Under the pieces are notes generated by a model, which was not told the DNA's origin, made no database searches, and saw only the letters and a program-made list of their open reading frames with translations. Positions 50,328 through 64,000 of a stretch of 64,000 nt of DNA are shown here, piece after piece. The stretch is taken from positions 1,178,001-1,242,000 of the forward strand of contig NZ_CP099582.1 in assembly GCF_024022995.1 (NCBI RefSeq), in the 5' to 3' direction. The position numbers and the translations under genes were made by a program. The DNA comes from Thermococcus aggregans (GTDB lineage: Archaea; Methanobacteriota_B; Thermococci; Thermococcales; Thermococcaceae). How positions within the stretch are numbered: position 1 is the stretch's first letter; each line of letters starts with the position of its first letter.

Positions 50328-51086
50328 TTATTCAAACCTCAGTGATACATCTCCGTAGAGAACTTTTTCTTTTCTGCCATCTTCGAGTTCAAGGATCAAT
50401 GCGCCAAGTTCATCAATATCTACAGCTTTTCCTCGAATTTCTCCTTCTTCTCTTATCACTCTAACTTCCCTATTTAGAATGGCTTTCTCTTTCCACTTTT
50501 GAAGTATCTTTTCATCTTTTCCGTGGAGAAATTCCTTGTACCAATATTCCAATCTCTCTACAAGGATTTTAAAGACATCCTCTATTGGGATTTCAACTCC
50601 CAAAACCTTGCTTATTGAGGTGGAAGTACTTAAAAGTTCCTCTGGAATTGGGTTATTAACGTTTATTCCTATGCCTAAAATTACGTAGTAAACTTCTCTT
50701 TCAGAAAAGCTACCCTCTGCTAAGATTCCGCATATCTTTTTTTCATTTACAAGGACGTCGTTGGGCCATTTTATTTTTGCTGCTTCCACTCCAAATCGCT
50801 CTAGAGTTTCAACAACGGCTATTGCTCCAAGGAAAACTATTTTGACTATGTGTTCTGGGGTGGTTTTTGGTTTTAATATTACGCTCATCCATAGTCCGCC
50901 CTTAGGGGACATCCAAGTTCTGAACTTTCGGCCGTAGCCTCTTTTTTGGACATCGGCTGTTATTATTGTTCCCTCGTCTTCGTGGGGAGCTATTTTTTTG
51001 GCGTATTCGTTTGTTGACTCTATTTCTTGAAAATATATCACTTTCCTTCCAATGCTCTTAGTATTAAGTCCAAGCACTTCCTCCAC
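50328..51086 (-). CDS. birA: Biotin-protein ligase (no HTH domain)
   Basis: 252 residues, mono-functional ligase. Adenylate loop KRGYGRKFRTWMSPKGGLWMSVIL is the GRGRx-type signature; ESTNEYAKK near the start, KWPNDVLVNEKKICGIL with catalytic lysine, and GIGINVNN are conserved. The N-terminal regulatory HTH of E. coli BirA is missing, so no biotin repressor function is expected from this protein. It starts at GTG 51086 or GTG 51077; the promoter TTAAATAA is close. Shares its short promoter region with the divergent fba gene. Confidence 0.9.
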   Translation of the reverse strand: MEEVLGLNTKSIGRKVIYFQEIESTNEYAKKIAPHEDEGTIITADVQKRGYGRKFRTWMSPKGGLWMSVILKPKTTPEHIVKIVFLGAIAVVETLERFGVEAAKIKWPNDVLVNEKKICGILAEGSFSEREVYYVILGIGINVNNPIPEELLSTSTSISKVLGVEIPIEDVFKILVERLEYWYKEFLHGKDEKILQKWKEKAILNREVRVIREEGEIRGKAVDIDELGALILELEDGRKEKVLYGDVSLRFE

Positions 51087-51153
51087 CGTAGTATATCTTG
51101 GGCTTTTGAGATTATTTAATTAACGATAGGTTTAAATCCTGCTTTTCATAGTG

Positions 51154-51170
51154 TATCACCAGAGGTGAAT
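51154..51170 (+). promoter_or_regulatory. TGM-like site over the fba transcription start
   Basis: TATCAC-CAGAG-GTGAAT agrees with TATCAC-N5-GTGATA except in the last two bases. It lies about 20 bases downstream of the TATA box (TTTAAATC, 51131-51138) and includes the start of the RBS GAGGTGA. Downstream TGMs mark genes repressed by TrmBL1 in the absence of sugar. Because RBS bases are shared, the right half may be partly fortuitous. Confidence 0.55.
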
Positions 51171-51173
51171 GGT

Positions 51174-52022
51174 ATGGAAGCGTACAACAACATTGGGATT
51201 AAAAGAAGACTTAGAAGGTTTTTTAGGAGAAATGGGAGGGCTTTGATTTTTGCAATGGATCACGGGTTTGAACATGGGCCAACAGATTTTGAAGAAAACT
51301 GGGAGCACATTAAGCCTGGAATCATAATCCGAAAGGTTGTTAGAGCTGGCGTAGATGGCGTAATGATGCTTCCAGGGATAGCGAGAATAGCAGGTGAAGA
51401 GCTCATCGGTAAGGATGTAGGCTTGATGGTAAAGCTTACCAGCAAAACAGGGCTTAGACCGAAAGAAGAATGGCTTATGCAGGATCAGCTCGGCTTTGTT
51501 GAAGATGCTATTAAACTGGGCGCTGATGCCGTAGCGGCAACTGTTTACTGGGGAAGCCCATATGAGGGTGCAATGATGAGACAATTCGCAGAAATAGCAA
51601 GCTATGCCCACGATTTGGGATATCCAGTTGTTCAGTTTGCCTATCCAAGGGGACCATACATTAATGAAAAATACGGCAAGAAGGAGGATTACAGGGTAGT
51701 TATGTATGGTGCAAGAGCTGCAGCCGAGATGGGAGCGGATATGATCAAAACCTATTGGACGGGGTCAAGAGAAACATTTGCCAAAGTTGTTGACGCCGCA
51801 TCTGGTGTTCCGGTTCTCTTGAGTGGAGGCGCAAAGACAGACAATCCCGTGGACTTCTTAAAGCTCGTCTGGGAAGTCATTGAAGCTGGAGGAAGCGGAG
51901 CAGTTGTTGGGAGAAATATATTCCAGAGAGAAAACCCAGAACCAATGATCAAGGCGCTTCTGAGGGTAATCCACAGAAACGAAGACCCAGAAGAAGCCGC
52001 AAAGGCTGAAGGATTAATCTGA
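51174..52022 (+). CDS. fba: Fructose-bisphosphate aldolase, archaeal class I (DhnA type)
   Basis: 282 residues from ATG 51174 ([13 protein letters not shown]); GTG 51165 falls in the RBS. Schiff-base enzyme of the archaeal FBA family: [56 protein letters not shown] (the Schiff-base lysine is in IKTYW) and [27 protein letters not shown]. Serves glycolysis and gluconeogenesis. Divergent from birA. T-rich sequence (52021-52042) after the stop. Confidence 0.95.
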
Positions 52023-52454
52023 CTTTTCTTAACTCTTTATTTTGGAAATACTGACAGGATAAGCAGTAGAGCGCTACACTTAAGTTGTCGACCATATTTC
52101 AGAAAACCATTATTTACTTTGAGTAATTTCAGTCTTAAAACTCTTTTCGCCAGAAAAGAAAATCAGGACAGCAAGAATATACCGAAGAGAGATCTCGGCT
52201 ACAAACAAGTCGTAAAAATCTGGAATCGATCACACAACAATCCTTCCTGCTTGTCTTGGAATCTTACGAAAATCAACTTTTTCTGATTGATAAGGCAAAA
52301 GGGGTATAAGTCTGCTTTTAAGAGTCTGGAGCTGGGTTTTATTCATGGGACTTTTGGGTTGGGGGGCATTGGAGCAAAATTATCGGTAGAGTTTTTAAGG
52401 CAGAACAAGGGCTGTAACCCATACCGCGGAAAAGAAAACAGAAACTAAACTGAG
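52023..52454. other. Gene-free spacer before the transposase remnant
   Basis: About 430 bases between fba and the recognisable transposase frames. Short open stretches exist (for example QQSFLLVLESYENQLF near 52235) but none has a start, RBS or known family. The sequence may contain more debris of the insertion element. Nothing else is seen. Confidence 0.3.
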
Positions 52455-53330
52455 CCAAGTACGAACAGTTAAGAAATCTCCCGAACAAACAAGTATTCAA
52501 AACACTCAAAAACGCAATTTACACCCTACCAGAACCCTACACAGTCCACAAAGGCGGAAGAGGCCGACCAGCCTACAACCCAAAAGCCATAACAGTCCTA
52601 ATACTCTGGCAATTCTACATAAACAAAAGCGACAGAAACTACCAGAACTACCTCAAATCAACCGACTGGATCAAAAAAAGAACTAAACCTAACCAAAATT
52701 CCCGACAGACAGACTCTAGACAGATACAGGAAGAAAACAACACCAGAATACCTAGCAAACCTCAACAAACTGATCCTAAAGCAAATTAACTCCAGAAAAC
52801 TGGCGATTGACTCCACGGGCTTGAAGGTTTCTAGAAGACTGCCAGCATGCTCCGTAAAAAGGCGGCCGGGGATTTTTAAAACTGCATGTTCTTTACGATT
52901 TAGAATCTAAAACTGTAGTTTCACTGCGCGTGACTGAAGGTTTTCGGTATGATTCGTCGGTTTTCAGGAATTTGATCAGGGATGTTGGACAGTTGGAGTG
53001 TTTGCTGGTTGATTGTGGGGCATTTGGCTTGGCAGAATGAGGGGTTGGTTATTGAGAAGGGTGGTTTGCCGTTTATTAAGCTGGAGAGGAATGTTGGTAG
53101 GGGTTCTAGACCGAGGGGGTGTTCTGCTTGGAAGGATATGGTTAGGTTTCAGTTGGATCATCCGCGGAAGTTTCGGCGTGTTTGCAGGTCTAGGGTGTTG
53201 GTTAAGTCGTTTTTCAGTGTGTTTCAGTCTAAATTTCTGGATTTTGTTCGGTGTAGGTTGTCTGCTTCTATCTTCACTGAAATTTTTGGTAAAATAATTC
53301 TGTTAAACCTGATTCAGGATTCAGGTGATC
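52455..53330 (+). pseudogene. Wrecked DDE transposase (IS4/IS5-type remnant)
   Basis: At least four frames must be joined: KGGRGRPAYNPKAITVLIL and DRNYQNYLKSTDWIKK (52520-52680), a shift in the A7 run near 52680 to LTKIPDRQTLDRYRKK and LAIDSTGLKVSRR (52690-52840; the D of AIDSTG is a catalytic candidate), a shift near 52870 to LHVLYDLESKTVVSLRVT and CLLVDCGAFG (second D), a shift near 53030 to LAWQNEGLVIEKGGLPFIKL and then SFFSVFQSKFLDFVRCRLS with FTEIFGKIILLNLI. The catalytic order D...D...E is intact in outline but not translatable. Family assignment is tentative. No terminal inverted repeats or target duplications were found by eye. Confidence 0.75.
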
Positions 53331-53407
53331 AAAATGCAGAAAAACCTAATGCTCCAATGTCCATTGAACCAAAAACTTTTAAATTTGTCAGGAGATAAAA
53401 TCATGTA

Positions 53408-54115
53408 ATGAACATGAATACTGAAGAGATAGTAGAGATTGGAGTACGTCAGCAAGGATGGCGTTCGAGTCTTACAACCACCTTATTAGATAGCAAAATT
53501 GAAAAAATAAGTTTTTTTTTCAAAGACATTCTGGCATTTTCAACCCAATATGTACTAAACGCTCCCCCAAGGTGCATTTATGAGTTTTTAAATCAAGATG
53601 GAAATGTAATAGATTACCATGTAATTGAGGTATCGGAAAATATGAGTTTTGTAGTAACTTGGGAAAAATTAGAACATCTTACACCATATTTTGTTGAGGC
53701 AGGGTTTTACCCTCTCTACCCACCAGTAGTTGAGAAAGGCATCACAAAGTGGTTATTAGCAACCAGACCTTCACTAACATCTTTTTCCAAATTATTTGAG
53801 TTATTAGAAAAAGCAAATGTTAATATTGTATATATTAATAGAATGGAAATTCAAGAAGCAAAAAAAGAAATACTCACCTATGTTTGCAAAGCTAATATTT
53901 TCATAGATTTACCCATATTATCAGAAATTGAAGAAAAAATTTTAAAGAAATGCTTGGATGAGGGGTACTATGAGTTCCCAAGAAAAAAGAGTCTCCGTGA
54001 TATATCAAAAGCCTTGAATATGTCTCCTTCAACTTTTAGCTATACATTAAGAAAAGCTGAAAAAAAAATTATTAGTTGGGTTCTTAATTCCAAATTCTAT
54101 AAAAAACAGCCTTAA
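53408..54115 (+). CDS. Bat-type HTH transcriptional regulator
   Basis: 235 residues. The C-terminal 60 residues are an HTH_10 (bacterio-opsin-activator type) domain: LSEIEEKILKKCLDEGYYEFPRKKSLRDISKALNMSPSTFSYTLRKAEKKI. The N-terminal 150 residues form an alpha/beta sensor-like region without transmembrane segments. TATA CTTTTAAATT (about 53376-53385) predicts a start near ATG 53408, so the mRNA may be leaderless. The gene heads the AT-rich catabolic island and is the natural candidate to bind the two repeated 47-bp elements. Confidence 0.8.
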   Translation: MNMNTEEIVEIGVRQQGWRSSLTTTLLDSKIEKISFFFKDILAFSTQYVLNAPPRCIYEFLNQDGNVIDYHVIEVSENMSFVVTWEKLEHLTPYFVEAGFYPLYPPVVEKGITKWLLATRPSLTSFSKLFELLEKANVNIVYINRMEIQEAKKEILTYVCKANIFIDLPILSEIEEKILKKCLDEGYYEFPRKKSLRDISKALNMSPSTFSYTLRKAEKKIISWVLNSKFYKKQP

Positions 54116-54331
54116 TTCTTTAAACTTTTAGGAATCGATTATTGTCCTAGACATTTAGGAATATACATTTACCCTATACCTTGATATTGTTTTTTGTTAT
54201 TAAGCGAATCCACAAAGTTCAAGCGAAAATTAGGGTATTTTCTCTATATTTTTAAAGATGAGATTACTAAAGCCAACTTTAAAATTCTTGAGGAATTGTT
54301 TTGTCCTTTAATAAGTTATGCCGCTCTAGAG
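54116..54331. other. AT-rich spacer upstream of the island's first operon
   Basis: About 215 bases between the regulator's stop and the 47-bp promoter element. Two T-rich runs after the stop (ATTCTTTAAACTTTTAGG; TTGTTTTTTGTTATT) may end the regulator transcript. A short stretch near 54265-54310 has a protein-like look but no support. No gene found. Confidence 0.3.
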
Positions 54332-54378
54332 ATTTATAAAGTTCTCATTGTATATTTTCAAATATAATTGCACATTTT
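54332..54378 (+). promoter_or_regulatory. 47-bp promoter/operator element, copy 1
   Basis: Starts with the TATA box ATTTATAAAG and continues with CATTGTATATTTTCAAATAT and a TGCACATTTT end. It matches 60087-60133 in 42 of 47 positions with no gaps, and all five differences are C/T transitions. The part after the TATA box includes TATTT-TC-AAATA (perfect five-base arms) over the expected transcription start, the place for a repressor. It drives the M29-like gene and the first symporter module. Confidence 0.65.
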
Positions 54379-54433
54379 AGACAATAAGAAAATAATTTAT
54401 TGAGGAGCATCATGGAATAGGGGTGGCCGCTGT

Positions 54434-55414
54434 ATGACCAAATGTGAAATAGAGGGTGCACGTATATTAGTTAATACTTGTGGATGTGTGAAGCCGGGGG
54501 AGAATGTAGTAGTAATTACAGACACGAATAAGATTTCTATCGCAGAATACATTGTCATTGCAGCTCAAGAAAAAAATGCAGAAACTGTGCTTATTATCAT
54601 GTCTCCTCGAGAAACACATGGAGAAGAGCCCCCTAAAACTGTAGTTGGTGCCGTGAAAGAGGCAGATGTAGTATTTGCAGTCACAACATTTTCACTTTTT
54701 CACACCAAAGCACGCCAAGAAGCATGTAAAAATGGAGCTCGTTGGATAAACCTACCAGACTTTCGTAGAGAAATGCTTTGTAGCGGGGGTTTATATGTAG
54801 ACTTTTTATCTCAGAGGGAATTAGTTGATAAATTAGCTTCAATTCTTTTAAATGGTTCGCAAGTTAAAGTTATCACAGAAAGAGGTACTGATATTGAATT
54901 TTCTATAAAAGGTCGTTCTCCTATTCGAGAATATGGTATCTGTGATAAGCCAGGAATGGTTTCTTCTCCCCCCGATATTGAAGTTTGTATTGCGCCAGTA
55001 GAAGGTACAGCAAATGGGAAGATTGTTGTGGATGGAAGTATCGTTCTGCCTGAAATAGGACCTCTTTCTAAAGGTAAAGAAGTTATACTAACAGTTAAAG
55101 ATGGTTTTATCAGAGAAATTAATGGTGGAACTGAAGCTAGGAAGTTTAAAAAAGTGCTTGAAACAGCAAATGATCCTTCTGTATATAATATAGCAGAATT
55201 TGGAATAGGTCTTAATCCAATGTGTGAATTAAGTGGAAGTATGCTTGAAGATGAAGGGGTTTATGGAACTATCCACTTTGGTATAGGAGATAATCACACT
55301 ATGGGGGGAATTACAAAAGCTCCCATGCACATTGACGTGGTAATTAAGGAGCCTACGGTAATTGTAGATGGTAAAATCATCATAGATCACGGAGAACATG
55401 TTTATGCAAAATGA
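54434..55414 (+). CDS. M29 aminopeptidase / NicX-like metalloprotein
   Basis: 326 residues resembling the family that unites M29 (thermophilic) aminopeptidases and NicX 2,5-dihydroxypyridine dioxygenases. Visible motifs: VKPGENVVVITDTNK at the N-terminus, RGTDIEFSIKGR, APVEGTANGKIVVDGSI, AEFGIGLNPMCEL and GTIHFGIGDNHTMGGITKAPMHIDVVI, the metal-ligand region (E, H, H, D). M29 enzymes are about 410 residues; this one is nearer to NicX in length. Activity could be exopeptidase or ring-cleaving; no ring hydroxylase is present. First gene of the island's first operon, followed by the symporter module. Confidence 0.7.
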   Translation: MTKCEIEGARILVNTCGCVKPGENVVVITDTNKISIAEYIVIAAQEKNAETVLIIMSPRETHGEEPPKTVVGAVKEADVVFAVTTFSLFHTKARQEACKNGARWINLPDFRREMLCSGGLYVDFLSQRELVDKLASILLNGSQVKVITERGTDIEFSIKGRSPIREYGICDKPGMVSSPPDIEVCIAPVEGTANGKIVVDGSIVLPEIGPLSKGKEVILTVKDGFIREINGGTEARKFKKVLETANDPSVYNIAEFGIGLNPMCELSGSMLEDEGVYGTIHFGIGDNHTMGGITKAPMHIDVVIKEPTVIVDGKIIIDHGEHVYAK

Positions 55415-55546
55415 TGATGGGGGTGATAAACAAATGAGATAAAACATATTATCTATCCTAGAGAAGGAATATAGAATTTATGTTAGTGGATAAGTTGAAT
55501 ATTTCGTTATTCTAAGTAAACTAAATTAATTGAGGGGGAATTAAAA

Positions 55547-55666
55547 ATGGAGGGATATGTCTTAACAGGTTGGTTGATGTTAGTTTTCATTCCACTAGCA
55601 AGTTTGGGATACATGACATGGTGGAGTTACAATATTCTAAAGAAAGAAGAAGGTGAAGAAGGATGA
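55547..55666 (+). CDS. Small symporter-associated membrane protein 1
   Basis: 39 residues: one transmembrane helix (GWLMLVFIPLASLGYMTWW) followed by a charged tail (LKKEEGEEG). RBS GAGGGGG at 55532-55538. Its TGA overlaps the ATG of the SSS symporter (ATGA, 55663-55666), so translation is coupled. A similar ORF (60341-60448) stands before the second symporter in the same arrangement, which strongly supports that both are real and act as accessory subunits. Confidence 0.75.
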   Translation: MEGYVLTGWLMLVFIPLASLGYMTWWSYNILKKEEGEEG

Positions 55667-57156
55667 TAGAAGAAGCGATATTCATAGGATACTTGATTCT
55701 TTTACTTATAGTTGGTTGGTTAGGAACTAAATACACGAAAACTGTTGAAGATTTCTATGTTGCTGGCAGAAAAATGGGAGCGTGGGTTATGGCATTTACT
55801 CATGAAGCAAGTGCTATGAGTGGTTGGGTATTCCTAGGAGCTGCTGGGATGTGTTATGCAATGGGCTACACTGGACTATGGAATGTACCGGGAGTTGTCA
55901 TTGGTACTGTCATGGTTTTTGTGCTTTGTGCTATCCCTACTTGGAGACTAGGGAAATTATTAGGAGCCATAACTTTAACAGATGTTTTAAAGGCTAGATA
56001 TTATGATGATGAAAACCGCCTATCTACTGTTGTAAGTGCAGTGATTCTTTTGGGCTCATGGTTGTATGTACTAGCTCAATTAGTAGCCTCAGGTAAGACA
56101 TTAGAATTCTTTTTTGGTTGGAAATATGCATATGGAGTTATTTTAGCAGGGTTAATAATTACATTATACACAATGGCAAGTGGATTGTTTGCTGTAGCAT
56201 GGACAGACTTCATTCAAGGAGCAATAATGTTACTTGGATTAACACTTGCAGTAATTGCTGGGATTAAGGAGGTTGGGGGTATTACCCCAACGTTTCACGC
56301 CTTACATTCAATTGATCCTAGTTTAGTACAGCTTGCTCCCACTATGGCAGTACTTGCGTTTGGAATAAGTTTTCTACTAGGAGAGGGGACTGTGTCCTAT
56401 CTCGGACAACCCCATCTTTACCCAAGGTATCTTGCATCCAAGTCTCCAAAAACTATTGCAAGAGCAGGATTAATAGCAACAGTTGTAATCATTATTTTTA
56501 TGATAGGAGCAGCTTTGGGGGGTTTTGCTGGTAAGGTACTATGGCCTGATCCGTCAGTATTTCCAAGAGGAGATCCGGAGTACGTACTGTTACAGTTGTT
56601 TAGATACGTATACCCACCAGTTATTGCTGCTCTCTTCACAACTGCAGTTTTAGCAGGAGCCATGTCAACAGCAGACTCCTGGCTTCTCGTAGCAGCTAGT
56701 ACAGTAGCTTGGGATATTTACACAAGGATATTAGGTAAAGAAGTTGACCAAGAAAAACATGTTCAACTTTCTAGAATTGTCGTTCTAATTATAGGAATTA
56801 CAACAATACTAATTGCTCTAAAACCTAGCTCTGTATTATGGCTTGTTGCTTATGCATGGGGAACATTTGCTCAATTAGGAGTTATTATAGTAGGCGGGTA
56901 CTACTGGAAGAGAGGCACCCAAAAGGGTGCTATATGGGGATTAATAGCAGGAGTTGTCACTAATATTGTTTGGTATCATACACTGAGGGATTTAGCTCAT
57001 CCTGCACCCATAGGAATGGCTGTAGGTTCTATAGTTTATATCATTGTTAGTTTGCTAGATAAAGAACCTCCAAAGAAAGCACAGGATTTAGTAGTCTACG
57101 CTAGGACGGGTAAACTTCCTGAAGACTCCGAGTGGAAGCAATTACAAGCTTCATGA
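55663..57156 (+). CDS. Sodium:solute symporter (SSS family) 1
   Basis: 497 residues, about 13 helices, LeuT-fold SSS transporter (PutP/PanF group). Family motifs: EDFYVAGRKMGAWVMAFTHEASAMSGW, LVASGKTLEFFFGWKYAYGV, MASGLFAVAWTDFIQG, YLGQPHLYPRYLA and FTTAVLAGAMSTADSWLLVAAS, whose S/T residues include the Na2-site signature. The cytosolic tail (DLVVYARTGKLPEDSEWK) is identical to that of the second copy. Adjacent enzymes suggest an amino-acid-like or organic-acid substrate. Shares several exact blocks with 60445-61947 (see repeats). Confidence 0.88.
   Translation: MIEEAIFIGYLILLLIVGWLGTKYTKTVEDFYVAGRKMGAWVMAFTHEASAMSGWVFLGAAGMCYAMGYTGLWNVPGVVIGTVMVFVLCAIPTWRLGKLLGAITLTDVLKARYYDDENRLSTVVSAVILLGSWLYVLAQLVASGKTLEFFFGWKYAYGVILAGLIITLYTMASGLFAVAWTDFIQGAIMLLGLTLAVIAGIKEVGGITPTFHALHSIDPSLVQLAPTMAVLAFGISFLLGEGTVSYLGQPHLYPRYLASKSPKTIARAGLIATVVIIIFMIGAALGGFAGKVLWPDPSVFPRGDPEYVLLQLFRYVYPPVIAALFTTAVLAGAMSTADSWLLVAASTVAWDIYTRILGKEVDQEKHVQLSRIVVLIIGITTILIALKPSSVLWLVAYAWGTFAQLGVIIVGGYYWKRGTQKGAIWGLIAGVVTNIVWYHTLRDLAHPAPIGMAVGSIVYIIVSLLDKEPPKKAQDLVVYARTGKLPEDSEWKQLQAS
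56530..56608 (+). repeat. Exact 79-bp block shared with 61315-61393
   Basis: Inside the symporter genes, GGTAAG...GATACG is identical over 79 bases to the second copy. The bases on both sides differ. Synonymous sites within the block show no change, unlike the rest of the two genes, so recent conversion is likely. Confidence 0.85.
56626..56694 (+). repeat. Exact 69-bp block shared with 61411-61479
   Basis: GCTGCTCTC...GTAGCA, identical over 69 bases, coding for AALFTTAVLAGAMSTADSWLLVA in both symporters. Separated from the 79-bp block by only 17 diverged bases in each copy. Confidence 0.85.
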
Positions 57157-57169
57157 ATTTTTAAATTTT
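57047..57169 (+). repeat. Exact 123-bp block shared with 61838-61960
   Basis: Covers the last 36 codons, the stop and 13 bases of 3' flank (TTTTTAAATTTT). Identity ends four bases before the flanks diverge. Because it extends past the stop codon, it reflects DNA exchange and not protein constraint. Confidence 0.85.
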
Positions 57170-57180
57170 ATTTTTTTAAT
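57157..57180 (+). terminator. T-rich transcript end of symporter 1
   Basis: TTTTTAAATTTTATTTTTTTAATTT immediately after the stop codon is a run of T's of the sort used for archaeal intrinsic termination. The second symporter has a similar but shorter run at 61947-61970. Confidence 0.45.
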
Positions 57181-57213
57181 TTCAACTGATGAAAGTGGTA
57201 AAAATCCAGTTAG

Positions 57214-57294
57214 TTGAATTTCTCAAGACCACACAAGAAGGAGATTGCCGAGGGTATTGAGAAACTAGCTAAACTTTATAAGGAAAAGGTTTGA
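57214..57294 (+). pseudogene. 3' remnant of an aminotransferase gene
   Basis: A frame without start reads LNFSRPHKKEIAEGIEKL-AKLYKEKV and ends at TGA 57294. It resembles the end of the aminotransferase at 62736-63947 (FSYPSEEEIVEGIKRLAKTCKEEG). Hence a second aminotransferase-like gene was probably present here and was lost by deletion. Confidence 0.55.
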
Positions 57295-57371
57295 AGGTAC
57301 ACAGTTTATTTTTTGCTTTGGCTCTGTACCTACTGGTAATAGCATTAATCGGGTGGGCAAGGGAAACTTGA
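57291..57371 (+). CDS. 26-residue membrane peptide
   Basis: TTG start overlapping the previous stop (TTGA): MKVHSLFFALALYLLVIAL followed by IGWARET, one hydrophobic helix with a short polar end. Tandem TTGA overlaps on both sides suggest a translationally coupled string. It is short and could be a chance frame; the next ORF overlapping in the same manner raises the odds. Confidence 0.4.
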   Translation: MKVHSLFFALALYLLVIALIGWARET

Positions 57372-57499
57372 GAAAAGAAGTAAGAGCAATTATAGGAGTG
57401 GTGGGTATTGCAGTTGCAACTTTAAATATAATTCCAGTAGCAATTGGGGCGGCAATTGTTATATGGTTAAAGCTCTTCAGAGGAAAGCTCAAAGTTTAA
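57368..57499 (+). CDS. 43-residue membrane peptide
   Basis: TTG 57368 overlaps the stop of the 26-residue ORF (TTGA). The product is basic-hydrophobic-basic: LRKEVRA, a long helix (IIGVVGIAVATLNIIPVAIGAAIVIW), then LKLFRGKLKV. This resembles small subunits that accompany NSS or SSS transporters. No transporter gene is left next to it, so it may be the residue of a lost module. Confidence 0.4.
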   Translation: MRKEVRAIIGVVGIAVATLNIIPVAIGAAIVIWLKLFRGKLKV

Positions 57500-57606
57500 G
57501 GGTTAGCTTCTCTTGCTTTTCCCTTTTTCACTAAATCCCCATAGTAGAAAAATAAAATCAGGTAAACATGTAGATATTACTAAATAAATGTTATGAGGTG
57601 ATAAAT

Positions 57607-58797
57607 TTGTTATTTAACCGGAAAAGGGCTTTAGAAATTATGGAGAAGTATGACTTAGACGTGCTTGTATCTACCACACCGGAAAACGTCCTTTATCTTA
57701 GCAACTACCAAAGTGTTAGCCACAAATTGTTAAAAGAAGTTCAGATATACGCAGTATTTCCACGTGATCTTGAACCGGTCTTGATAATACCAATGTCCGA
57801 CTTAGATCTCTATGCAGATAACCCCAGTTGGATAAAGGATGTGAGAACCTATGGCACGTTCTATATAGAGGAAGGAGAATCAACCGAACTTTCGAAATCG
57901 GAATTGAGACTTGCTAAACTCCAAAAGATAGCTAAACCAGGGTTAGATCCCTTTACAGTCTTAACAAATGTTTTATCAGAAAAAGGGCTGGACAAAAGCA
58001 ATATAGGATTAGACGAAATGGGCATAGACTACGTCACACAGTCTAAACTTAAGGCTATGTTACCAGAGGCTAATTTTAAGCCCGCTTATAACATACTTAG
58101 AGAAATCAGGATGATTAAAACAAAGGAGGAAATAGAATTATTACGCAAATCTGCTGAGATATCACAAAAAGCAGTAGAGAGGATGCTGGAGTCCGTAAAA
58201 GAAGGTGTAACTGAACGAGAGCTTGCCCAAGAACTTGAAGAAGTAATAGTTAGAAACGGTGCAAAACCCTTCCTCACAGTTCTAGGGTGTGGCACTAGAA
58301 GCGCTTTTCCCAACGCATTGCCAAGTGATTATAAAGTTAAAAAAGGTGATATAATCCGTTTTGATGGTGGATGTGAATACAAAGGGTACTACTCAGACAT
58401 AGCAAAAATAGCAGTATTGGAAAGGGCCAATGAAAAAGTCAAGAAGTACTTTAAGGCAATCGCTTTAGGAGTTGAAGAAGCAGCTAATGCTATAGAACCA
58501 GGGGTCAAGGCATCAGAAATATTCCAGATAGCAATGGAAGCAGTTAAAAAAGCAGGAATACCACATTATAGAAGGCATCATGTCGGACATGGTATTGGTG
58601 CAGAGTGCTATGATCCACCCATACTTAGGCCAAGTAATCAGACTGTTTTGGAACCAGACATGGTAATAAACATCGAGACACCGTACTATGAATTTGGTTT
58701 AGGCGGACTTCAAGTCGAAATAACTATTCGAGTGACACAGGATGGTTACGAATTGTTAACCCCTCAAACTTTTGATAATGATTTATTAATAATATGA
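57607..58797 (+). CDS. M24-family peptidase (Xaa-Pro dipeptidase-like)
   Basis: 396 residues from TTG 57607, four bases after GAGGTGAT; GTG 57598 lies in the RBS. Creatinase-type N-domain (1-130) and pita-bread C-domain with all five metal ligands: Asp in IIRFDGGCEYKGYYSDIAK (two), His in RRHHVGHGIG, Glu in NIETPYYEF and Glu in GLQVEITIRV. Could cleave X-Pro peptides or, as some M24 members do, C-N bonds in non-peptides (creatine-like). The threonine-synthase-like gene follows by 15 bases. Confidence 0.85.
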   Translation: MLFNRKRALEIMEKYDLDVLVSTTPENVLYLSNYQSVSHKLLKEVQIYAVFPRDLEPVLIIPMSDLDLYADNPSWIKDVRTYGTFYIEEGESTELSKSELRLAKLQKIAKPGLDPFTVLTNVLSEKGLDKSNIGLDEMGIDYVTQSKLKAMLPEANFKPAYNILREIRMIKTKEEIELLRKSAEISQKAVERMLESVKEGVTERELAQELEEVIVRNGAKPFLTVLGCGTRSAFPNALPSDYKVKKGDIIRFDGGCEYKGYYSDIAKIAVLERANEKVKKYFKAIALGVEEAANAIEPGVKASEIFQIAMEAVKKAGIPHYRRHHVGHGIGAECYDPPILRPSNQTVLEPDMVINIETPYYEFGLGGLQVEITIRVTQDGYELLTPQTFDNDLLII

Positions 58798-58812
58798 AAG
58801 AGATGATGTCAG

Positions 58813-60084
58813 ATGGCAGATAGAGTCATAGGTTTAAAATGCTTAAATTGTGGTGCAGAATACCCTCTCAGCAGAATGTTCGAGGGTTGCCCTAAATGTG
58901 CAACAGACAAATTCAGATCTAACCTAACAGTAGTATACGATTACGACGCAATTTCAAAACTTATTTCCAAAGATCTCTTCCTAAAGAGATCAAGACTTAT
59001 GGGAGTGTGGAGATTCAAAGAGCTTTTACCAGTTGAGAACGAAAAATACATGATAACACTGGGAGAGGGTAATACTCCATTACTCAAATGTAAAAACTTG
59101 GAAAAAATCTTGGGACTTAGAAATCTCTATGTAAAAGATGAGTCGAGGAATCCTACTTGGTCATACAAAGACCGGTTATGTTCTGTTGCTATCTCAAAGG
59201 GGCTAGAGTTTGGTGCTAAAGTGGCCACAGTAGCAACAACAGGTAATCATGGGGGCTCTACTGCCGCATACGCTGCTAAAGCAGGGATGGATTGTGTTAT
59301 ATTTACCTTGCCCACAGTCTCGGACATAATGTTAACTTTGATGCATATATATGGAGCAAAAGTAGTGCCCATTACAACACCCGAAGGCAGATGGGCATTA
59401 ATGAAAAAGTGTGTAGAAGAATTAGGATGGTATCCTACGGGCACATATTCGTCTCCAATGCCTACGGGAAATCCCTACGGGGTTCAGGGGTATAAGACCA
59501 TAGCTTTTGAAATAGCTGAGCAGTTGGAGTTTGAAGTGCCTGACTGGGTGGTAGTACCCACGGTTTATGGAGAGGGGTTATACGGTATATGGTTGGGGTT
59601 TAATGAATTTCAAAACTTAGGTATTACTGATGATCTCCCACGGATGATAGCTGCTGAGACAGAAATGGGACCCATAGCGAATGCATTAAGAAAGAATCTT
59701 GACTACATTGAAAAAGTCCCATCGAAACCCACTGTAGCATTATCGATAGCTGGTACTATAAGTAGTTACCAAGCATTAAAGACTATGCGTGATTCAAATG
59801 GCTATGCCATGCCAGTTACTGATGATGAAATATTACAAGCACAAAAAATGTTAGCTAAGCATGAAGGAATTTTTGCGGAACCAGCTTCCTCTGCTTCTTT
59901 AGCAGCCGTGATAAGATTAGTAGAAGAGAACAGGATTGATAGAGATGAAAAAATAGTACTAGTGATTACATCAACAGGGCTAAAGGATATAAGGCCTGTG
60001 ACTCCAAAGAAGTTACCAGCAATAGAGCCAGTATGGAAAGATCTTGAAATATTTCTGAAAAAGCACTATAATTTTCAGCTATAG
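58813..60084 (+). CDS. Threonine-synthase-like PLP enzyme with zinc ribbon
   Basis: 423-residue fold-type II PLP enzyme. N-terminal rubredoxin-like zinc ribbon, C10-x2-C13 and C26-x2-C29. PLP lysine K119 in TWSYKDRLC; GEGNTPLLKC; ATTGNHGGSTAAYAAKAG; the phosphate-binding Gly-rich loop. Though like ThrC, the catabolic setting suggests a related lyase/dehydratase: beta-replacement enzymes such as diaminopropionate ammonia-lyase or threonine dehydratase share this fold. I do not assign a reaction. Just 15 bases after the M24 gene. Its stop is directly followed by the second 47-bp promoter element. Confidence 0.75.
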   Translation: MADRVIGLKCLNCGAEYPLSRMFEGCPKCATDKFRSNLTVVYDYDAISKLISKDLFLKRSRLMGVWRFKELLPVENEKYMITLGEGNTPLLKCKNLEKILGLRNLYVKDESRNPTWSYKDRLCSVAISKGLEFGAKVATVATTGNHGGSTAAYAAKAGMDCVIFTLPTVSDIMLTLMHIYGAKVVPITTPEGRWALMKKCVEELGWYPTGTYSSPMPTGNPYGVQGYKTIAFEIAEQLEFEVPDWVVVPTVYGEGLYGIWLGFNEFQNLGITDDLPRMIAAETEMGPIANALRKNLDYIEKVPSKPTVALSIAGTISSYQALKTMRDSNGYAMPVTDDEILQAQKMLAKHEGIFAEPASSASLAAVIRLVEENRIDRDEKIVLVITSTGLKDIRPVTPKKLPAIEPVWKDLEIFLKKHYNFQL

Positions 60085-60086
60085 GT

Positions 60087-60133
60087 ATTTATAAAGTCTT
60101 CATTGTATATTTTCAAACATAACTGTACATTTT
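60087..60133 (+). promoter_or_regulatory. 47-bp promoter/operator element, copy 2
   Basis: Near-copy of 54332-54378 (42/47). TATA box ATTTATAAAG, then TTCATTGTATATTTTCAAAC and TGTACATTTT. In this copy TGTA...TGTACA gives a further palindromic core. It begins three bases after the stop of the threonine-synthase-like gene and drives the second symporter module. Confidence 0.65.
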
Positions 60134-60340
60134 GGGAGATAAAAATATGTGCTAATGATTGATTACATATATCTGGAACCATAGTAGATAAAAGGAAACT
60201 GGGGGTGATGGCCAAACTTTTGTCATATCCTCAGTAGTAGTTCCATACTTCATTTGCAAACTTCACCATCCCTGACGTAATGCAAATTGAACATTTCGTT
60301 GTTAGCAACTAATTAAGATAAGAAGTGAGGGGGATTAAAA
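60134..60340. other. Leader between promoter copy 2 and second symporter module
   Basis: About 200 bases without a gene. GGGGGTG-ATG at 60207-60216 opens a frame that stops after nine codons (MAKLLSYPQ), perhaps the remnant of a lost gene at the place where copy 1 has the M29-like gene. The last 60 bases (ATTTCGTTGTTAG... GAGGGGGATTAAAAATGG) resemble the leader before the first accessory gene. Confidence 0.35.
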
Positions 60341-60448
60341 ATGGAAGATTACGTGGTAATTGCTGGTCTCTGGGTTTTTGGAATTCCTTTGGTTTCAATA
60401 TTAGTGTCTGTCCTATACTGGTACAAGGTCAGGAGGGGCATAGAATGA
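60341..60448 (+). CDS. Small symporter-associated membrane protein 2
   Basis: 35 residues: a membrane helix (VIAGLWVFGIPLVSILVSVLYW) and a basic tail (YKVRRGIE). RBS GAGGGGG, ATG 60341. Its TGA overlaps the symporter ATG (ATGA, 60445-60448). It shares the position, coupling and shape with the ORF at 55547-55666, but sequence identity is low, so each small protein probably fits its own symporter. Confidence 0.75.
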   Translation: MEDYVVIAGLWVFGIPLVSILVSVLYWYKVRRGIE

Positions 60449-61947
60449 TAGAAGAAGCGATATTCATAGGATACTTGATTTTTTTACTTATAGTTGGTTG
60501 GTTAGGAACAAGAAGAACTAAGACTGGTGAAGACTTCTATGTTGCTGGCAGAAAAATGGGAGCGTGGGTTCTAGCGTTTACTCATGAGGCTAGTATTATG
60601 AGTGGTTGGGTATTCCTAGGAGCTGCTGGTTTTGTATATGAACATGCAGTTGCAGGAACATGGGTAGTGCCTGGAGATGTGCTTGGTACATTAATGGTAC
60701 TTATTCTGTGTGGAATTCTAGTACACAGGATAGGAAAATTAACGGGAGCTATATCAGTAATAGACGTTTTGGAAGCTAGATACTATGATGAAGATAAACG
60801 TATTATCAGATTAATTTTAACCTTGGTAATTTTATTTGCATCATGGGCATATGTAGTGTCTCAGCTAGTAGCAGGGGGCAAGACGCTAGAATTCTTTTTT
60901 GGCTGGAAATATGGCTATGCAGTTGTGATAGTAGGGATGATAATTATACTCTACACAATGGCAAGTGGAATGCTTGCTGTAGCGTGGACTGACTTCGTCC
61001 AAGGACTATTGATGCTGATAGGACTCTCCCTAGCTATAATAGTTGCGCTTAAAGAAGTAGGTGGTTTTGCACCTATGCTCGATAAACTTCATGCAATGGA
61101 TCCTTCATACACAAAGCTTGCTCCCAATTTTCTAGTAACTATGCTTTCATTTACAGTACTTTTGGGTTCAGGAACTTTTGGATATCTAGGTCAGCCCCAT
61201 ATACATGCAAGATATCTTGCAGCTAAGGATGAAAAAACAATTGCAAATGCAACAGTAATATCAGTGGTTGTAATCTCTATATTCATGATAGGAGCAGCTT
61301 TAGGAGGGTTAGCGGGTAAGGTACTATGGCCTGATCCGTCAGTATTTCCAAGAGGAGATCCGGAGTACGTACTGTTACAGTTGTTTAGATACGCATTTTC
61401 TCCAGCGATGGCTGCTCTCTTCACAACTGCAGTTTTAGCAGGAGCCATGTCAACAGCAGACTCCTGGCTTCTCGTAGCATCCACATCTGCTTCATGGGAT
61501 TTCTATAAACAGTACCTTAGAAAACCGATAGATCAGAAAAAACAAGTTAATATTGCTAGAATTACAACATTAGTTCTTGGATTCCTCGCAATTCTGTTTT
61601 CCTTCAAACCAGAATCCGTATTCTGGCTTGTGGCATTAGCATGGGGAACATTTGCATCAGCGATTGGCCCTCCATTAGTTCTTGGTTTATATTGGAAAAG
61701 AGCTACCAGAAAGGGTGCTTTGGTAAGTATAATAGTAGGAGCCATAGTAAATGCTGCATGGCACTATGCTGGTTTAGAAGCTTATTCACATCCTGCAGTT
61801 CCAGGCATGGCAGCTGCAACGATAGCTCTTGTTGTTATTAGTTTGCTAGATAAAGAACCTCCAAAGAAAGCACAGGATTTAGTAGTCTACGCTAGGACGG
61901 GTAAACTTCCTGAAGACTCCGAGTGGAAGCAATTACAAGCTTCATGA
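60445..61947 (+). CDS. Sodium:solute symporter (SSS family) 2
   Basis: 500 residues from ATG 60445 (MIEEAIFIGYLI), not the longer frame that overlaps the accessory gene. Paralogue of the symporter at 55663: same N-terminus, motifs EDFYVAGRKMGAWVLAFTHEASIMSGW, FLGAAGFVYEH, YLGQPHIHARYLA and the shared conversion blocks. The central helices differ (SWAYVVSQLVAGGK, FAPMLDKLHAMD), so the substrate range probably differs too. Confidence 0.88.
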   Translation: MIEEAIFIGYLIFLLIVGWLGTRRTKTGEDFYVAGRKMGAWVLAFTHEASIMSGWVFLGAAGFVYEHAVAGTWVVPGDVLGTLMVLILCGILVHRIGKLTGAISVIDVLEARYYDEDKRIIRLILTLVILFASWAYVVSQLVAGGKTLEFFFGWKYGYAVVIVGMIIILYTMASGMLAVAWTDFVQGLLMLIGLSLAIIVALKEVGGFAPMLDKLHAMDPSYTKLAPNFLVTMLSFTVLLGSGTFGYLGQPHIHARYLAAKDEKTIANATVISVVVISIFMIGAALGGLAGKVLWPDPSVFPRGDPEYVLLQLFRYAFSPAMAALFTTAVLAGAMSTADSWLLVASTSASWDFYKQYLRKPIDQKKQVNIARITTLVLGFLAILFSFKPESVFWLVALAWGTFASAIGPPLVLGLYWKRATRKGALVSIIVGAIVNAAWHYAGLEAYSHPAVPGMAAATIALVVISLLDKEPPKKAQDLVVYARTGKLPEDSEWKQLQAS

Positions 61948-61981
61948 ATTTTTAAATTTTTAATTTCGTTGGAGGTGGCGA

Positions 61982-62689
61982 ATGATGATAAGAAGATGCA
62001 AATTGGGGGTATTAGTTCCTTCCTCTAATATTACTATGGAGTATGAACTTTATAAGATGGCACCAGACGGAGTGTCGATTCATTTCTCGAGAATACCTCA
62101 AACAGAAGATACAGAAGAGCAATTGGCAGCTATGATTGATTATGTTCCCCAAGCTGCCGAATTATTAGCTCATGCAAGAGTTGATGCGATAGCATTCGGT
62201 TGTACTAGTGGTAGTTTCATAAAAGGAGTTGGATATGACAAACAAATTATAGAGAGCATACAACAAAACACTGGAATACCCGCAACTACTACAACAACTG
62301 CTGTTTTAGAAGCCTTGGACTTAATGGGGTTGAAAAAAATCTCAGTTGGTGCACCATACACTGATCCGATAATGCAGAAATTAAAGAAACTACTGGAAGA
62401 AAATGGATTCAAAATAACAAAAATAAAAGGCCTTGGTCTTCTCAAGGGTGAAGGAGACTTACCCATAGATGAAACGTATAAATTAGTCAGAGAAATTGAT
62501 ACTCCTGAGTCCGATGGGATCTTTATAAGCTGTACGGATTTCAAAACTGTCGAAATTTTAGAATTGCTAGAAGAAGATCTCGGAAAACCTGTTGTTTCGA
62601 GCAATCAAGCAACTATGTGGAAATTGTTGAGATTATCGGGGTTAAAGACCAAAATAAGAGGGTTTGGTGCATTATTACGAGAATTCTGA
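61982..62689 (+). CDS. Maleate isomerase / Asp-Glu racemase superfamily enzyme
   Basis: 235 residues of the arylmalonate-decarboxylase/maleate-isomerase (PF17645-like) group. Two catalytic cysteines sit in symmetrical positions: C74 in AFGCTSGSF and C183 in FISCTDFKT. VPSSNITMEYE near the N-terminus and the VGAPYTDPI loop are typical of maleate isomerases. Two Cys suggests racemase or cis-trans isomerase and not a one-Cys decarboxylase. RBS GGAGGTGG; two adjacent ATGs. The gene lies 34 bases behind the symporter and 46 before the aminotransferase. Confidence 0.75.
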   Translation: MMIRRCKLGVLVPSSNITMEYELYKMAPDGVSIHFSRIPQTEDTEEQLAAMIDYVPQAAELLAHARVDAIAFGCTSGSFIKGVGYDKQIIESIQQNTGIPATTTTTAVLEALDLMGLKKISVGAPYTDPIMQKLKKLLEENGFKITKIKGLGLLKGEGDLPIDETYKLVREIDTPESDGIFISCTDFKTVEILELLEEDLGKPVVSSNQATMWKLLRLSGLKTKIRGFGALLREF

Positions 62690-62735
62690 GAAGATGTGGT
62701 ATGTTTCATCAAATGGAAAAGATGGGGGGATAAAA

Positions 62736-63947
62736 ATGAATTATGAAAAATACTATTCGGAAAAAGTGAAAGGTATGAGGCCCTCAATAATTAGGGAATT
62801 GTTAAAGAAGTATGTAGGAAAAAAAGGCCTTATCTCTCTAGCAGCTGGCAATCCTAGCCCAGAAACTTTTCCAACAAGGATAATCAAAAAACTTGCAGAT
62901 GAGGTGCTTGAAAAGTATGGAAAGGATGCACTCCAGTATGGTCCTACGCCTGGTTATTCGGGACTTATAGAGCAGATAAAGAACTTCATAGAAGAAAGAT
63001 ACAAAATAGATTCCTCAAAAGTGGGCGTGTTGATAACGTCTGGTGCACAACAGGTGCTTGATTTAACTGGTATGACTTTTCTAAACCCAGGAGACGTTGT
63101 AATCATTGAAGCGCCCACATATGTAGCGGCTATTGATGCTTTTGCTCAGTATGGTCCTGAGTTTGTTCAAGTGCCAGTTGATGAGGAGGGGATGAGGGTT
63201 GATGTGCTTGAGGACAAGCTTAAGAAATTGAAAGCTGAAGGCAAAAACGTGAAATTCGTCTATACAATCCCAACATTTCAAAATCCTGGTGGAGTAACAA
63301 TGAGTGAGGAAAGGAGGAAGTACCTTCTTGAGCTTGCAAACAAATACGACTTTTTAATCATTGAAGATGATCCATACCACGAGCTTAACTATTCGGATAA
63401 AGAACCTCCGCTGCCTATAAAGCACTGGGATTCAGAGGGGAGAGTTATCTACTCTGGAAGTTTCTCAAAAATCCTTGCACCTGGCTTTAGAGTCGGGTGG
63501 ATTGTGGCGGATCCGCAGATTATCAGAAAATTTGAGATTGTTAAGCAACGGCGTGATCTTCACACGAGTAGTTTTTGCCAGTACATCGCTGCAGAGTACA
63601 TAAAAGGAGGTTATCTTAGAGAGCATATTCCAAAGATTAGGGCATATTATAAACCAAAGTTAAAGGTAATGCTTGACGCTTTGGAAGAGTACATGCCGGA
63701 GGGATTTGAGTGGACTAAGCCGACAGGAGGCATGTTTGTTTGGGTAATGGGTCCAAGTGAATTGAATACAACTTCCATGCTAGAGAAGGCCGTGGAGAAT
63801 GGTGTAGTGTACGTTCCAGGTGAAGCGTTTTACCCAGACAGAAGTGTAAAGAACGCTATGAGAGTGGATTTCTCGTATCCAAGTGAAGAGGAGATTGTTG
63901 AGGGAATTAAAAGACTAGCAAAAACATGCAAAGAAGAGGGGGTGTGA
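62736..63947 (+). CDS. PLP-dependent aminotransferase (class I/II, LysN/ArAT-like)
   Basis: 403 residues from ATG 62736 (MNYEKYYSEKVKGM) behind GGGGGGAT. Fold type I: ITSGAQQVLDLTG, PTFQNPGGVTMS, Asp/Tyr at IIEDDPYHEL and the PLP lysine K245 in SGSFSKILAPGFRVGW. YPTF-like IPTFQNPGG and the overall length resemble archaeal 2-aminoadipate/aromatic aminotransferases. In the island it would form the 2-oxo acid from the imported amino acid. Five bases before the next gene, so one operon. Confidence 0.88.
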   Translation: MNYEKYYSEKVKGMRPSIIRELLKKYVGKKGLISLAAGNPSPETFPTRIIKKLADEVLEKYGKDALQYGPTPGYSGLIEQIKNFIEERYKIDSSKVGVLITSGAQQVLDLTGMTFLNPGDVVIIEAPTYVAAIDAFAQYGPEFVQVPVDEEGMRVDVLEDKLKKLKAEGKNVKFVYTIPTFQNPGGVTMSEERRKYLLELANKYDFLIIEDDPYHELNYSDKEPPLPIKHWDSEGRVIYSGSFSKILAPGFRVGWIVADPQIIRKFEIVKQRRDLHTSSFCQYIAAEYIKGGYLREHIPKIRAYYKPKLKVMLDALEEYMPEGFEWTKPTGGMFVWVMGPSELNTTSMLEKAVENGVVYVPGEAFYPDRSVKNAMRVDFSYPSEEEIVEGIKRLAKTCKEEGV

Positions 63948-63951
63948 CAAG

Positions 63952-64000
63952 TTGAAAGTAGAATTTATGCTTGGAAACCACGCTATTGTGGAGGGTGCTA
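63952..64000 (+). CDS. Probable 2-oxoacid:ferredoxin oxidoreductase alpha subunit, 5' end
   Basis: Only the first 16 codons are in the window. TTG 63952 follows GGTGTGA. The visible start MKVEFMLGNHAIVEGA fits the xGNxAxxEGAxxAG opening of KorA/VorA-type alpha subunits, where pyruvate-binding domain I begins. The gene directly follows an aminotransferase, as such enzymes do in amino-acid fermentation. The short visible length limits certainty. Confidence 0.55.
   Translation, partial: MKVEFMLGNHAIVEGA

Follow-up and report, generated by a model that had tools for sequence, protein, structure and literature searches.

Two symporter operons in the 64-kb window (the whole stretch of Thermococcus aggregans DNA that was analysed) are each preceded by a near-copy of the same 47-bp stretch, and a gene for an HTH_10 regulator adjoins the first of them. 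Do these stretches define a small regulon, as a first-pass annotation had proposed, or are they a promoter that was simply copied along with the genes behind it? The features on which the answer depends are the following.

53408..54115, + strand: HTH_10 regulator gene (235 aa), the candidate binder; PF04967, 60.7 bits
54332..54378, + strand: element copy 1, TATA box through predicted start region, nicX-like/symporter-1 operon
54333..54340, + strand: TATA box TTTATAAA of copy 1, canonical by inspection of the sequence
54434..55414, + strand: NicX/M29-like gene, first behind copy 1; 7cn3 match, E 1.5e-20
55547..55666, + strand: 39-aa ORF overlapping the start of symporter 1; no Pfam match
55663..57156, + strand: SSF symporter 1; PF00474, 242 bits
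60087..60133, + strand: element copy 2, TATA box through predicted start region, symporter-2 operon
60088..60095, + strand: TATA box TTTATAAA of copy 2, canonical by inspection of the sequence
60341..60448, + strand: 35-aa ORF overlapping the start of symporter 2; no Pfam match
60445..61947, + strand: SSF symporter 2; PF00474, 275 bits
61982..62689, + strand: Amdase/EutA-like gene behind symporter 2; PF17645, 130 bits
62727..63947, + strand: aminotransferase gene behind the Amdase/EutA-like gene; PF00155, 148 bits

The two element copies and the genes behind them

Direct comparison of 54332-54378 with 60087-60133 bore out the 42/47 match reported for the two copies, as well as the claim that they diverge by C/T changes only: 5/5 differences (54343, T/C; 54344, C/T; 54363, T/C; 54368, T/C; 54371, C/T) are of this kind on the + strand. 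The BLAST match is longer (54323-54378 / 60078-60133, 86% over 56 nt, E 1.8e-12). An 18-bp block, 54345-54362, is unchanged between the copies and lies in the TATA-to-start spacer, which is normally free to vary. Outside the element, in register, 34/80 positions are identical upstream and 22/55 downstream, and conservation is limited to the TATA box through the predicted start region. The annotated TATA box is indeed canonical, while the start is placed by distance only; from the usual distance to the TATA box, we take transcription from copy 1 to begin near 54362-54366.

The copies precede the first and the second symporter operon, as had been annotated, and copy 2 is separated by two bases from the stop codon of a PALP gene (60082-60084). 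A genome search for further copies, which the annotation had recommended, found these two places, both at symporter operons, and none at unrelated genes. In the own genome (1,889,107 bases), BLAST at E<=0.001 returned no other place, and relaxing the threshold to E<=0.1 added one 31-nt match (C1:1323692, E 0.07). A 30-base core with <=3 mismatches occurs at 2 places genome-wide, the reversed control pattern at 0, and the next best 47-mer on both strands of the window reaches 27/47. Among 94 family genomes, own included, 17 match the element at E<=0.1; outside the own genome these matches are weak and short (16-35 nt, E 0.0026-0.082) and we read them as chance. No exact element was found in viral contigs, Rfam gave 0 matches in 51000-64000, and a literature search by titles and the starts of abstracts, with most subscription papers outside its scope, yielded no report of the element or the regulator.

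The first gene behind copy 1 resembles 7cn3, a 2,5-dihydroxypyridine 5,6-dioxygenase, and scores 25.2 bits against Peptidase_M29, under the cut-off of 27. Beyond the window, the aminotransferase gene is followed by genes with POR-type oxidoreductase and succinate-CoA-ligase-type domains, the latter subunits scoring under the curated NCBIfam cut-offs. Between the two operons, whose limits we infer from spacing, lie a 48-aa ORF, an M24 peptidase gene and the PALP gene, which may have their own promoter (TTTATAA at 57275) without the element.

Several further observations concern these genes. The small ORFs of 39, 35 and 48 aa (55547-55666, 60341-60448 and 57353-57499) are hydrophobic by eye and have no Pfam match. 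At 54412-54420, ATG GAA TAG follows GAGGAG and forms a two-codon frame immediately ahead of the NicX-like start codon; it may be a leader feature. The stretches 57598-60084, 61982-63947 and L022 952-6846 hold a gene set for M24 creatinase-like, PALP, Amdase/EutA-like, aminotransferase, 2-oxoacid oxidoreductase, succinate-CoA-ligase-like and D-glutamate-cyclase-like proteins, some of which resemble ectoine-utilisation proteins. A search of the operon-2 leader for remains of nicX found none (score 17, equalled by 65% and 99% of shuffles).

Duplicated symporters and the age of the promoter copies

Symporters 1 and 2 are 65% identical as proteins, and their DNA is a mosaic in which seven exact tracts of 28-107 nt stand inside strongly diverged sequence. 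Fourfold sites are identical at 62/62 positions inside the tracts and at 51/97 outside them. The tracts look like gene conversion, which in this hyperthermophile has probably struck the paralogous symporter pair 55663-57156 / 60445-61947 repeatedly. Set against the 51/97 fourfold rate, the 42/47 identity of the element has a P of 8e-8 (5e-5 if the rate is taken as 0.63). Since the symporters behind it are such diverged duplicates, the element is constrained or homogenised. A second homologous block stands immediately ahead of the small ORFs (alignment score 39, with 0/300 shuffles as good). The promoter was thus probably part of the duplicated unit, its core having stayed alike.

The promoter may be a plain duplicate: it would have travelled with the small-ORF/symporter unit, gene conversion or constraint on the basal promoter would have kept the copies similar, and no dedicated regulator would be needed. 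Such a history agrees with the exact tracts in the symporters, with the second homologous block, and with the transition-only differences of the element (5/5, vs 70/183 third-position differences between the symporters, P 0.008), as expected of a younger shared copy. Long stretches of similarity are moreover frequent between the two symporter genes, owing in part to protein constraint and in part to the exact tracts: of their 1445 47-bp windows, 259 are as alike as the element, with 42 matches or more. However, the similarity starts with the TATA box and stops shortly after the predicted start, the DNA upstream of copy 2 (the end of the PALP coding region) is unrelated, and constraint on the basal promoter would not by itself keep the spacer between TATA box and start unchanged. 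We regard a plain duplicate as unlikely, although with a chance that has to be reckoned with. The sharp limits and the conserved spacer are best accounted for by selection on a binding site, with homogenisation of a short shared block as the main rival explanation.

The HTH_10 regulator and the origin of the locus

If a binding site is under selection, the neighbouring regulator is the most likely candidate to occupy it. The gene had been called Bat-type and placed 200 bases upstream of copy 1. It adjoins copy 1, with a gap of 216 bp from its stop codon to the element, and the name suits its C-terminal HTH_10 domain (PF04967, residues 171-222; 60.7 bits vs a cut-off of 23.1) but not the remainder, since no other Pfam domain, BAT, PAS, GAF and REC included, matched at E<=0.001. 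Its predicted structure has a mean pLDDT of 48 with an unusable N-terminal part, and a search of solved structures returned no relative (best E 0.73).

Relatives of the regulator are few. At E<=1e-10 in the 94 family genomes, only the own genome matches, with the gene itself and one paralogue (37% identical, C1:1277702-1278355, 46 kb away). A profile built from both matches 5/115 phylum genomes, the other four in the HTH part only, and at the cut-offs used the paralogue is the sole full-length relative in these 115 genomes. Weak relatives occur in 54 plasmid records, and among the matches listed all are haloarchaeal; the best is 24% identical over 91%, the haloarchaeal ones are annotated as bacterio-opsin activator or helix-turn-helix protein, and the neighbourhood of one plasmid relative has no symporter among 12 features. 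Viral contigs contained no regulator. In genome contigs, full-alignment patterns picked out 287 stretches with no regulator relative, the search relying on two eight-residue patterns that could miss distant relatives, while patterns of the HTH part gave 23 loci from 122 stretches; at two archaeal loci of this set (L050, and L051 in part) no symporter operon was seen by eye.

Immediately downstream of the paralogue comes an SNF-type transporter gene, behind which follow genes like acyl-CoA synthetase alpha, indolepyruvate oxidoreductase, aminotransferase, SSF symporter and acyl-CoA synthetase beta, the aminotransferase and a second oxidoreductase subunit being named by eye (L023 8861-18367, - strand; G000:C1 about 1268861-1278367). 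An HTH_10 regulator thus stands beside genes of amino-acid uptake and fermentation twice, and because this neighbourhood recurs it supports a local role for each. The paralogue's stretch contains no exact half-site of the element, and no operator common to the two loci was seen. The paralogue promoter has a palindrome, TTCGAATATATTCGAA, just upstream of its TATA box (by eye); a 10-nt likeness between this palindrome and the element, TTCRAAYATA, is visible by eye and probably due to chance.

Symporter 2 and its paralogue are found in 1/115 phylum genomes at E<=1e-100. The regulator, the symporters and the element share a restricted distribution, because full-length relatives of the regulator and of symporter 2 were found, at the cut-offs used, in no other of the 115 phylum genomes. 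NicX-like relatives are spread more widely (36/115 phylum genomes, own included), and in two relatives (L073, L074) they belong to other gene clusters, which are bordered by Lrp-like ORFs (named by eye). Acquisition of the locus as an island is likely. Directly before the regulator, at about 52454-53300, decayed pieces of a DDE-type transposase lie in several frames (by eye), in a stretch that is single-copy in the genome; 2/4 scanned pieces match transposase families, one of them at the Pfam cut-off (DDE_Tnp_1, E 5e-5), with all NCBIfam matches far under their cut-offs. The pieces suggest the mobile-element edge of an island. Between 52 and 64 kb, 2-kb blocks have a G+C of 35-40%, against 39-55% in the rest of the window; since values down to 36% are also reached by 1.5-kb blocks outside this region, composition is weak evidence for acquisition.

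A putative operator over the start site

Downstream of each TATA box, the element contains two putative half-sites, YTGYAYATTTT, 20 bp apart in both copies, and copy 1 also has an inverted repeat.

54348..54358, + strand: putative half-site 1 of copy 1, TTGTATATTTT, defined after looking
54351..54366, + strand: inverted repeat TATATTT-TC-AAATATA of copy 1, shuffle P 0.026
54368..54378, + strand: putative half-site 2 of copy 1, TTGCACATTTT, 20 bp from half-site 1
60103..60113, + strand: putative half-site 1 of copy 2, TTGTATATTTT
60123..60133, + strand: putative half-site 2 of copy 2, CTGTACATTTT

The exact half-site occurs at 4 places in 120 kb of the own genome, all inside the elements; with one mismatch, 8 more places appear in the 30.5 kb scanned (52001-82500). 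The laxer two-half-site pattern finds 6 places in the genome, as does its reversed control, and only the two elements fit it with 0 mismatches. As a direct repeat, the arrangement has shuffle P values of 0.08 and 0.06 when each copy is taken alone and of 0.017 for both together, and the inverted repeat has one mismatch in copy 2 (60106-60121, shuffle P 0.37). The exact half-site is absent from the regulator's own promoter and from the paralogue's operon. Because half-sites and repeats were defined after looking, we treat these weak signals as a lead.

Our preferred reading, to which we give a probability of about 45%, is that the two stretches are core promoters with a built-in operator, bound by a regulator, most likely the neighbouring HTH_10 protein, that acts as a repressor. 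The 47-bp stretches would then be promoter and operator of two duplicated symporter operons within an amino-acid catabolism cluster. The protein encoded 216 bp upstream of copy 1 would cover the DNA between the TATA box and about +15, probably as one dimer or as two, bound to half-sites with a 20-bp spacing. As long as substrate is lacking, the bound regulator would block RNA polymerase or the opening of the start site, and the transported compound would lift the block. This scheme, in which start site, operon limits, binding, binder, repression and ligand are all predictions from the sequence, is supported by the 42/47 identity with its sharp limits, by the unchanged spacer block, by exact half-sites that were confined to the elements in the 120 kb scanned, by the restricted distribution common to regulator, symporters and element, and by the paralogue's place beside a transporter/amino-acid operon; against it stand the weakness of the repeats inside the element, the many symporter windows that are equally alike, the activating role of Bat and, judged by exact half-sites, the lack of an element copy at the regulator's own promoter and at the paralogue's operon. 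Overall, the small regulon that had been proposed appears plausible, with two copies and no third found, each at a symporter operon, and the HTH_10 gene adjoining the first.

The position of the conserved stretch, downstream of the TATA box, favours repression over a Bat-like upstream activation, and many archaeal repressors are described as acting by occlusion (PMC5569661). Activators with downstream DNA contacts have been described too (PMC7830388). It is improbable, in our view, that the HTH_10 protein binds the element but activates as Bat does. Activation is the role of Bat, the best-known of the HTH_10 proteins (PMC3184054, PMC5847659), and some Lrp-type activators contact DNA downstream of the TATA box (PMC7830388), but upstream, where an activator site would be expected, the two promoters show no conservation (34/80). 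That another regulator, e.g. of the Lrp family, binds the element and the HTH_10 gene is merely a neighbour seems quite improbable, as the Lrp-like ORFs bordering the NicX-like clusters of two relatives would suggest such a protein but the absence of the element from other family genomes, weak short matches apart, fits a lineage-specific binder better. Returning to repression by the HTH_10 protein, we consider it a long shot that the reading holds in its fullest form, i.e. a short HTH_10 protein serving as local substrate-responsive repressor over the start site and inverting Bat's role, together with C/T-only divergence caused by cytosine deamination on the strand that open promoter complexes leave exposed when temperatures are high.

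Such a regulon would be a tidy, fairly ordinary local control circuit. If true, a hyperthermophile would offer an operator recognised by a short HTH_10 regulator, and the pair of promoters would form a compact system in which to test how, in archaea, repression or activation follows from where a site stands with respect to the TATA box. The circuit would also point to a cluster for amino-acid catabolism, and what induces this cluster could reveal its substrate.

Among known systems, Bat/bop of Halobacterium salinarum resembles the present locus in that the HTH_10 regulator gene adjoins its target, and its bop and crtB1 promoters have a regulatory sequence in common (PMC3184054), like the two promoters here. 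Bat is however described as carrying REC, PAS, GAF and BAT domains (PMC5847659), for which our regulator has no Pfam matches, and the sequence shared by its promoters is an upstream activator sequence, whereas the conserved stretch here lies downstream of the TATA box. The CopR regulon of Pyrococcus furiosus, from a related order, is similar in that a semi-palindromic AT-rich motif is common to co-regulated promoters, being reported at 8/9 regulated promoters with an annotated start site, but CopR is an Lrp-type protein and its motif lies directly upstream of the BRE (PMC7830388). Finally, the placement of the element would suit an occlusion repressor such as PhrA, LrpA or TrmB, which are described as blocking TBP/TFB or polymerase (PMC5569661), although these belong to other protein families than the candidate HTH_10 regulator.
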